Source: Fretibacterium sp.
GTDB lineage: Bacteria > Synergistota > Synergistia > Synergistales > Aminobacteriaceae
Assembly (NCBI GenBank): GCA_024681935.1
Contig: JAIKZX010000226.1
Coordinates: forward strand, 1 to 39,341
Direction of reading: 5' to 3'
DNA length: 39,341 bases
Of the stretch, positions 38,016 through 39,121 are shown one piece after another. The number at the start of each line of letters is the position of its first letter. Position 1 is the first letter of the stretch. The translations under genes and the position numbers were made by a program. The notes under the pieces are model-generated. The model was not told the origin of the DNA. It searched no databases and was given only the letters and a program-made list of their open reading frames with translations.

Positions 38016-38654
38016 TCAGTTCCACTCCCTGTTGAGCCGGGTCAGATGGTCGATGCGGTTCAGGCTGAACAGGGAATAACCTCGCTCGTCGTGCGTGAGG
38101 AGGGATATCGACGCGGTGTCGAAATGGAACTTCCAGAACCAGGGACGCGTCATCTCCAGACAACAGGACACCAGCGGTTTCAGCACCGTCCGATGGGTAC
38201 ACAGGGCGATTGTCGTCCCGGCGTGGACCTGAACCAGCCGGTCCAGCACGGCGCGGCTTCTCCGGCCCACCTCGTCCAGGCTCTCCATGCCGGGGAAGAA
38301 AAGCTCCTCCGGCCTGTGCTTCCACAGGTCCCACAGTTCAGGCTGTTCACGCGCGATGTCGGCTTTCCTCCGGCCTTCCCACGCGCCGAAGGAGATATTC
38401 GTCAGGTCGTCCTCGATCTGTATCTCAAGCCCCAGGGCTCGGGCGGCCGGTTCAAGAGACTGGACCGCGCGGCGCAGAGGGCTGGAGTAAAGGACCGCGG
38501 GAGCCAGCCTTTGGAGCGCGGACGCGATCTGCTCCGCCTGCTGACGCCCCAGTTCGTTCAGCTCAAAATCGCAGCGGCCCCTGAACCGCTCCTCAATGTT
38601 TGCGCTGCACTCTCCGTGGCGCACAAGAATGACCGTCGTCCTCTGTTCTTTCAT
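38016..38654 (-). CDS. Histidine phosphatase family protein (phosphoglycerate-mutase-like)
   Basis: This 212-residue enzyme of the branch-1 histidine phosphatases has the catalytic 'LVRHGE' with His13, 'SSPLRRAVQS' with the phosphate-binding Arg61/62, Glu93 in 'FGAWEGR' and the second His154 in 'CTHRTVLKPL'. The family includes alpha-ribazole phosphatase (CobC), phosphoglycerate mutase and broad phosphatases. 'FGAWEGR' plus the length fit CobC-like members, but no cobalamin genes are nearby, so the substrate is undecided. The start ATG has GAGAGGAG nine bases before it. It is transcribed away from the yedF leader region, with which it shares a divergent promoter area. Confidence 0.9.
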   Translation of the reverse strand: MKEQRTTVILVRHGECSANIEERFRGRCDFELNELGRQQAEQIASALQRLAPAVLYSSPLRRAVQSLEPAARALGLEIQIEDDLTNISFGAWEGRRKADIAREQPELWDLWKHRPEELFFPGMESLDEVGRRSRAVLDRLVQVHAGTTIALCTHRTVLKPLVSCCLEMTRPWFWKFHFDTASISLLTHDERGYSLFSLNRIDHLTRLNREWN

Positions 38655-38683: not shown

Positions 38684-38713
38684 AGGACATATTCCCTCTG
38701 TTCCTGTTATAAT
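38684..38713 (+). promoter_or_regulatory. Candidate promoter of the yedF leader
   Basis: AGGACA (38684-38689), an 18-base spacer and a perfect TATAAT (38708-38713). The -10 lies in the palindrome TATAATTATA, so it could also serve as a -10 for the divergent phosphatase gene. Confidence 0.5.
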
Positions 38714-38748
38714 TATATAGAAAAAATCTATTGCAGGAGGGATTCTCG

Positions 38749-38757
38749 ATGACGTGA
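38749..38757 (+). other. ATG-ACG-TGA mini-frame behind a strong ribosome-binding site
   Basis: GCAGGAGGG lies seven to eight bases before an ATG that is followed by one sense codon and TGA. If the TGA were read as selenocysteine, the frame would run to a TAA at 38845-38847 (32 residues, with a Cys-Thr-Gly-Cys motif). Otherwise it is a minimal leader frame or coincidence. Details are given in the findings. Confidence 0.25.
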
Positions 38758-38888
38758 CGTGCCGCAGGCAAAAAATGCACGGGATGCATGTTCGTTGAGG
38801 GCCTTTCTGCCCCCTCGTCAGGGCTGTCCAATACCCGGGGGCTATAACGGCGCCTGATTGGTTTTACAGCTGCCTGTGTCTTCGTGCG

Positions 38889-38920
38889 CGCATACCCTCC
38901 AGGGGTAAGCGTTTTTTTTT
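38889..38920 (+). terminator. Intrinsic terminator in the yedF leader
   Basis: CGCATACCC and GGGTAAGCG pair (eight pairs, one A-A mismatch) around a five-base loop, followed at once by nine T residues (912-920 in the 38 kb block). No complete gene lies upstream on this strand, so it must end a small RNA, act as an attenuator, or end a leader transcript. Confidence 0.8.
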
Positions 38921-39121
38921 GCTGTTCACCGTATTAAAGATTCCATTTCGTTACTGACGGTGCGGGCCTGAATTCCGCGCCGGACGACGGCTCGCCGGTA
39001 AAATTGACTTTTCGATTTTAACTCGGGCGAACAGTTCCCCCGGACGGTTTTTTGCCGGCGCGGGGACTCCGAAGGAGCCGCAACATTATCAAATTTTGAT
39101 TACATTCGGGAGGGTTTCATC

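Follow-up and report, generated by a model that had tools for sequence, protein, structure and literature searches.

At the far end of the window, by which we mean the whole analysed stretch of 39,341 nucleotides, a promoter, a short leader and an intrinsic terminator are located between a divergently oriented gene of the histidine phosphatase family and yedF, a gene of selenium metabolism (Lin et al., PMC5322559), which is truncated here by the contig end (Table 1).

Table 1. Features of the leader locus in the window (G002, sister Fretibacterium genome).
Feature	Position	Strand	Basis and remarks
Histidine-phosphatase-family gene, divergent neighbour	38016..38654	-	Synteny anchor; in G002 likewise upstream of the pst leader
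Sigma-70-type promoter, extended -10 (TGTTATAAT)	38684..38713	+	Pattern match; kept in G002
Shine-Dalgarno sequence GGAGGG of the leader ORF	38736..38741	+	Sequence; at the same position in most curated leaders
Leader ORF AUG-ACG-UGA (two codons)	38749..38757	+	UGA at 38755-38757
In-frame readthrough ORF behind the UGA, 29 codons (RAAGKKCTGCMFVEGLSAPSSGLSNTRGL)	38758..38847	+	UAA stop at 38845-38847
SECIS-like hairpin AUGCA-CGGGA-UGCAU	38775..38789	+	22 nt from UGA to apical loop; fits bSECIS constraints (PMC13188914)
Anti-Shine-Dalgarno strand CCUUUCUGC	38802..38810	+	Closes a long hairpin enclosing the ORF and the SECIS-like loop
Intrinsic terminator	38889..38920	+	Begins ~40 nt past the readthrough stop
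pstB 3'-end remnant (DGAGLNSAPDDGSPVKLTFRF*), in frame	38956..39021	+	82% to the pstB end of G002
yedF (TIGR03527), truncated by contig end	39122..39340	+	Family match

Architecture and origin of the leader in the window

A preliminary description of this region had listed a promoter, a structured stretch and a clear terminator with no gene in between, and each of these elements holds up. The promoter combines AGGACA and TATAAT at a spacing of 18 with an extended TG; one such pattern was found, compared to 0.3 expected from shuffled sequences, and it is conserved in the sister genome G002. The fold of the 201-nt leader RNA outdoes that of 196 among 200 shuffled versions (z = -2.6). As to the terminator (CGC-A-UACCC-UCCAG-GGGUA-A-GCG, followed by nine U), the pattern alone is at chance level (one found, 1.2 expected from shuffles); it is borne out by the preservation of stem and U tract in G002, where the loop is altered. 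Within the leader, arranged as GGAGGG-N7-AUG-ACG-UGA, the anti-Shine-Dalgarno strand pairs back with the Shine-Dalgarno sequence, and G002 retains the homologous stop of the readthrough frame. The further proposal that GGAGGG could pair with CCCTCC of the terminator (38895-38900), rendering translation and termination mutually exclusive, was rejected: the complementarity is present in the window, but it is lost in G002, which carries CCCGCC. A search for tRNA genes and selC gave none in the window.

From promoter through terminator, the leader shares 81% identity with G002 over 237 bases. There, the same leader fronts a pstS-pstC-pstA-pstB operon, beside the same divergent phosphatase gene. 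In the window, the 66 bases of pstB between terminator and yedF are evidently the trace of a deleted pst operon. Since this operon was lost here, while the same leader fronts pst in G002, the place of the leader directly before yedF is secondary. The leader itself is still intact, and the genome of the window (G000) harbors a second pst operon on C108 (L012, 248-1088 after the core) with its own divergent leader copy, encoding MT-UGA. The earlier view of the element as a yedF leader thus needs to be modified: the window copy was built for a pst-type operon, yet in G096, from another genus of the Synergistota, yedF directly follows a leader, and a terminator separates the two.

A class of leaders with a UGA-terminated mini-ORF

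In total, 58 leader copies were curated from Synergistota, Chloroflexota and Actinobacteria. They share a layout of Shine-Dalgarno sequence, an ORF of 2-10 codons, UGA, a hairpin placed like a SECIS element (mostly UGCA-CGGGN-UGCA) and, often, a terminator. The Shine-Dalgarno sequence, start codon and ORF are present in nearly all curated leaders, and the mini-ORF ends with UGA in 58 of 58 and with UAA or UAG in none. The encoded peptides vary (e.g., MT, MFGFS, MRRCGYT, MVVVNRKT or MARFFT), with threonine frequently preceding the UGA.

How the copies were found is relevant for reading these counts. A first search with a pattern of Shine-Dalgarno sequence and TGYACNGGNTGYA only, which did not require the UGA, returned ~26 true copies within the order. 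A second one, with a core pattern lacking the Shine-Dalgarno sequence but including TGA, gave more copies, its matches lying far above the reversed control, and a scan of GTDB genomes contributed those of Actinobacteria and Chloroflexota. Gene-centred searches upstream of yedE and of the pstS-like orthologue group gave copies with altered cores, and these were UGA leaders only. The core UGCACGGGNUGCA is near-invariant in most copies, which is partly due to ascertainment, as most copies were found via the exact core and some patterns contained TGA. The core sequence is more conserved than SECIS hairpins require, in part because of the exact-core searching. The MAGs among the genomes are incomplete.

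The covariance model R1, run against 400 Chloroflexota genomes, was too weak: apart from many false matches, it yielded a single new true copy (L209). Of 30 loci read in a search around double-cubane genes in Actinobacteria, only the query's own locus carried a leader. Half of the pstS-like orthologues have no leader, several of them in genomes with SelB, and leader absence and SelB absence were not correlated among these orthologues. No comparable selenium or selenocysteine (Sec) leader was found in Rfam or in the open-access literature that was searched.

Evidence for recoding of the leader UGA

In all 58 copies, 17 or more codons follow the UGA in its own frame before the next stop, and in 55 of them the readthrough length lies between 17 and 43 codons (median, 29). 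Based on similarity in the part past the core, the copies form 38 clusters. Of these, 35 fell within this range, compared to 11.5 expected from dinucleotide shuffles, whereas the other two frames did so in 13 and 6 clusters, respectively. None of the searches had selected for an open readthrough frame. Furthermore, the hairpin loop lies mostly 16-25 nt downstream of the UGA. All 58 leaders conform to the published model of bacterial SECIS elements, i.e., a stem of 4-16 bp, a loop of 3-9 nt with a G in its first two positions and a distance of 16-37 nt past the UGA (PMC13188914), compared to 58% of dinucleotide shuffles.

The distance between UGA and hairpin is variable modulo 3, and each of the three frames is used for reading the core (20/23/13). 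Because the hairpin nucleotides are read in three frames, the core is kept as RNA and not as peptide; a conserved Sec-CxxC peptide was rejected on the same ground, the UGA-to-core distance not being constant modulo 3. The yedE leaders carry altered hairpins at the same place (GUGCA-CGUCG-UGCAC, AAGGGC-GUG-GCUCUU and GGAUGC-CGUGCA-GCAUCC), and in those of Chloroflexota the stem may differ entirely at this position. Such wholly changed stems are as expected of SECIS elements, which are variable in sequence. Taken together, the UGA at the end of the mini-ORF, the SECIS-like hairpin and the conserved length of the readthrough frame make up the conserved heart of the leader, and they suggest that selenocysteine recoding serves as the sensor. 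From these sequence comparisons, we consider recoding of the UGA well supported, and we infer that Sec would be the residue inserted and that SelB would bind the leader hairpin.

Sec is decoded in these Synergistota genomes. SelB is encoded in all 25 leader-bearing Synergistota genomes of at least 85% completeness, compared to 89 of 119 without a leader (Fisher p = 0.002, uncorrected for phylogeny). Of five leader genomes from other phyla that were tested, four encode it; the actinobacterial MAG with L111 gave no SelB above the cut-off. GrdB genes were present in 12 of 12 Synergistota genomes tested. In 15 GrdB genes, the Sec-UGA and the hairpin following it were read (e.g., CGAUGC-GGU-GCAUCG), and this hairpin is similar to the leader hairpin of the same Synergistota genomes.

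The preliminary description had considered a riboswitch-like or attenuation control of a selenium-related gene. The conserved cis-acting leader, the attenuator architecture and the link to selenium genes all stood, while a ligand-binding riboswitch is, so far as the evidence goes, disfavored. In that case, hairpin and Shine-Dalgarno helix would bind a selenium (or sulfur) compound as an aptamer, with UGA and mini-ORF being incidental or part of the aptamer. The near-invariant core of most copies, the stable hairpin of Shine-Dalgarno and anti-Shine-Dalgarno strands around it and the attenuator layout would agree with this. However, an aptamer leaves the conserved-length readthrough frame and the properly spaced start codons and Shine-Dalgarno sequences unexplained, and the whole stem is replaced in some yedE leaders. 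Moreover, Rfam gave nothing relevant in the window at a permissive threshold, and its covariance models gave no gathering match at 20 leader loci. We therefore regard a metabolite riboswitch as unlikely.

A small selenoprotein gene, encoding a functional peptide of ~30-40 residues with Sec near its start, is very unlikely. Its AUG, in-frame UGA, SECIS-like hairpin and real stop would be in place, and about a third of the copies feature CxxC, but the peptide could not be aligned by eye, its conserved nucleotides are those read in three frames, and the residues past the core differ even between sister species. Among the copies found, none had a cysteine codon in place of the UGA.

Highly improbable is also an ordinary leader or stalling peptide, for which UGA and termination by RF2 would matter (as a hungry codon or by arrest) and no Sec would be inserted. 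Such short peptides do resemble arrest leaders, and threonine or another small residue often stands before the UGA, but the peptides are too varied, and a pure stop would not keep its own frame open further downstream. A terminated small RNA that is free and acts in trans, with accidental adjacency to yedF, can practically be dismissed: strong promoter and terminator lie ~200 nt apart and the leader outlived its operon in the window genome, but copies in three phyla immediately precede selenium or transport genes on the same strand.

A candidate selenocysteine-dependent attenuator and its genes

Considering UGA, hairpin and readthrough frame together, the leader quite probably represents a selenocysteine-dependent attenuator. 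A ribosome would start on the tiny ORF and meet the UGA within 2-10 codons, with the loop of the SECIS-type hairpin mostly 16-25 nt further on. At sufficient selenium, SelB and Sec-tRNA would read the UGA, and the ribosome would proceed for ~29 codons until it reaches a second stop shortly before the terminator; in an alternative layout, it would pass over the start of the following gene in a different frame. In this way, readthrough would turn the selenium genes down. When selenium is short, release at the UGA would permit an antitermination or open fold of the downstream RNA, and the genes would be on.

As to the direction of this switch, the terminator begins 32-44 nt past the readthrough stop in 10 leaders (17-44 nt in more than 12 copies). 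At a gap of 32-44 nt, the ribosome would be too distant to obstruct the terminator itself but suitably placed to cover competitors upstream of it. In five other cases, all with a short spacer, readthrough would extend past the start codon of the following gene, each time in a different frame. Terminator spacing and start-codon overlap therefore favor readthrough as the off state, and we consider it likely that selenium turns expression off; repression at plentiful selenium is also the behavior an uptake gene should show. A uniform antiterminator common to the folds of 12 leaders was not found: it is partial in G015a, G009c (from F. fastidiosum, G009, NC_021038.1) and L325, and elsewhere absent or ambiguous. 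In many leader copies, no terminator was detected.

Several genes downstream have a relation to selenium. These include yedF in G015a and G096, a YedF-like DsrE domain in L146, yedE together with a cysteine-desulfurase/Sec-lyase-like gene in L148, and SaoT, of a thioredoxin-like (seleno)protein family, in G009d, with a similar gene in G007; saoT-linked transporters were found as well. The double-cubane reductase NF040772, relatives of which are reported in selenium gene neighborhoods, follows the leader in G000c, G001a, G003a, G014b, L111, L150 and L154, and SsuA/NMT1-like transporters downstream of leaders are located with double-cubane genes. The PstS of the Pst-like operons forms a sharply separate group, scoring above 370 bits against the G167 protein, compared to at most 213 bits for ordinary PstS (L291-L320), and both groups co-occur in about a dozen genomes. 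Instead of phosphate, this leader-associated group may take up a selenium oxyanion.

Some downstream genes, e.g., for amino-acid ABC transport, Moco or ECF transport, are not known selenium genes. In L054, L055 and L056, the readthrough frame reaches into the start of a gene with a PCC domain. Behind it come genes for an ECF transporter S component and for heavy metals of the copper type. These are unexpected targets for a selenium leader. In L068 (G014), the leader precedes a CobW-like GTPase with MoeA/MoaA/MobB-type genes, which perhaps serve a selenium-dependent molybdoenzyme. A further individual case is L325 of the Chloroflexota, where the UGA leader directly before yedE has a strong but unrelated hairpin as well as a textbook terminator (CCGCCGCAG...CUGCGGCGG-UUUUGUUUU).

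To our knowledge, the control of selenium uptake by selenium supply in bacteria is largely an open question, and we know of no dedicated selenium transporter that is firmly established. The leader offers both a candidate for a direct sensor, via recoding of its UGA, and a genomic tag for the selenium regulon, including the Pst-like transporter group. On balance, it is more likely than not that the leaders make up a widespread class of bacterial cis-regulators, not described before, in which a stop codon acts as sensor of the 21st amino acid. They would form a selenium regulon across Synergistota, Chloroflexota and Actinobacteria and flag new systems of selenium uptake. If true, the latter would comprise Pst-like, SsuA/NMT1-like and other ABC transporters, and stop-codon recoding would join the repertoire of attenuation.

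Like the attenuators of trp, his and ilv, the leader would combine a short translated ORF with a terminator behind it and let the position of the ribosome report amino-acid supply; in contrast to them, the codon sensed would be a stop that a hairpin further downstream recodes, and the alternatives would be release or readthrough instead of stall or no stall. With selenoprotein mRNAs such as fdhF and grdB, it shares the UGA and the downstream hairpin with a G in the first two loop positions at a spacing of 16-37 nt, but it yields no conserved protein, its UGA lying 2-10 codons from the start and its peptide product being variable. The 5' region of E. coli selAB contains a SECIS-like element for which repression upon SelB binding, without a recoded leader ORF, is described. 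The leader resembles it in the (here presumed) SelB-linked control in the 5' region of selenium genes and differs by its conserved UGA, ORF and readthrough stop. Finally, prfB, encoding RF2, is autoregulated by a frameshift at a UGA. In both cases, a UGA near the start would act as sensor through competition between termination and recoding, as proposed here for the leader, but prfB shifts frame into the gene itself, whereas the leader would be read through as a separate unit in a selenium context.
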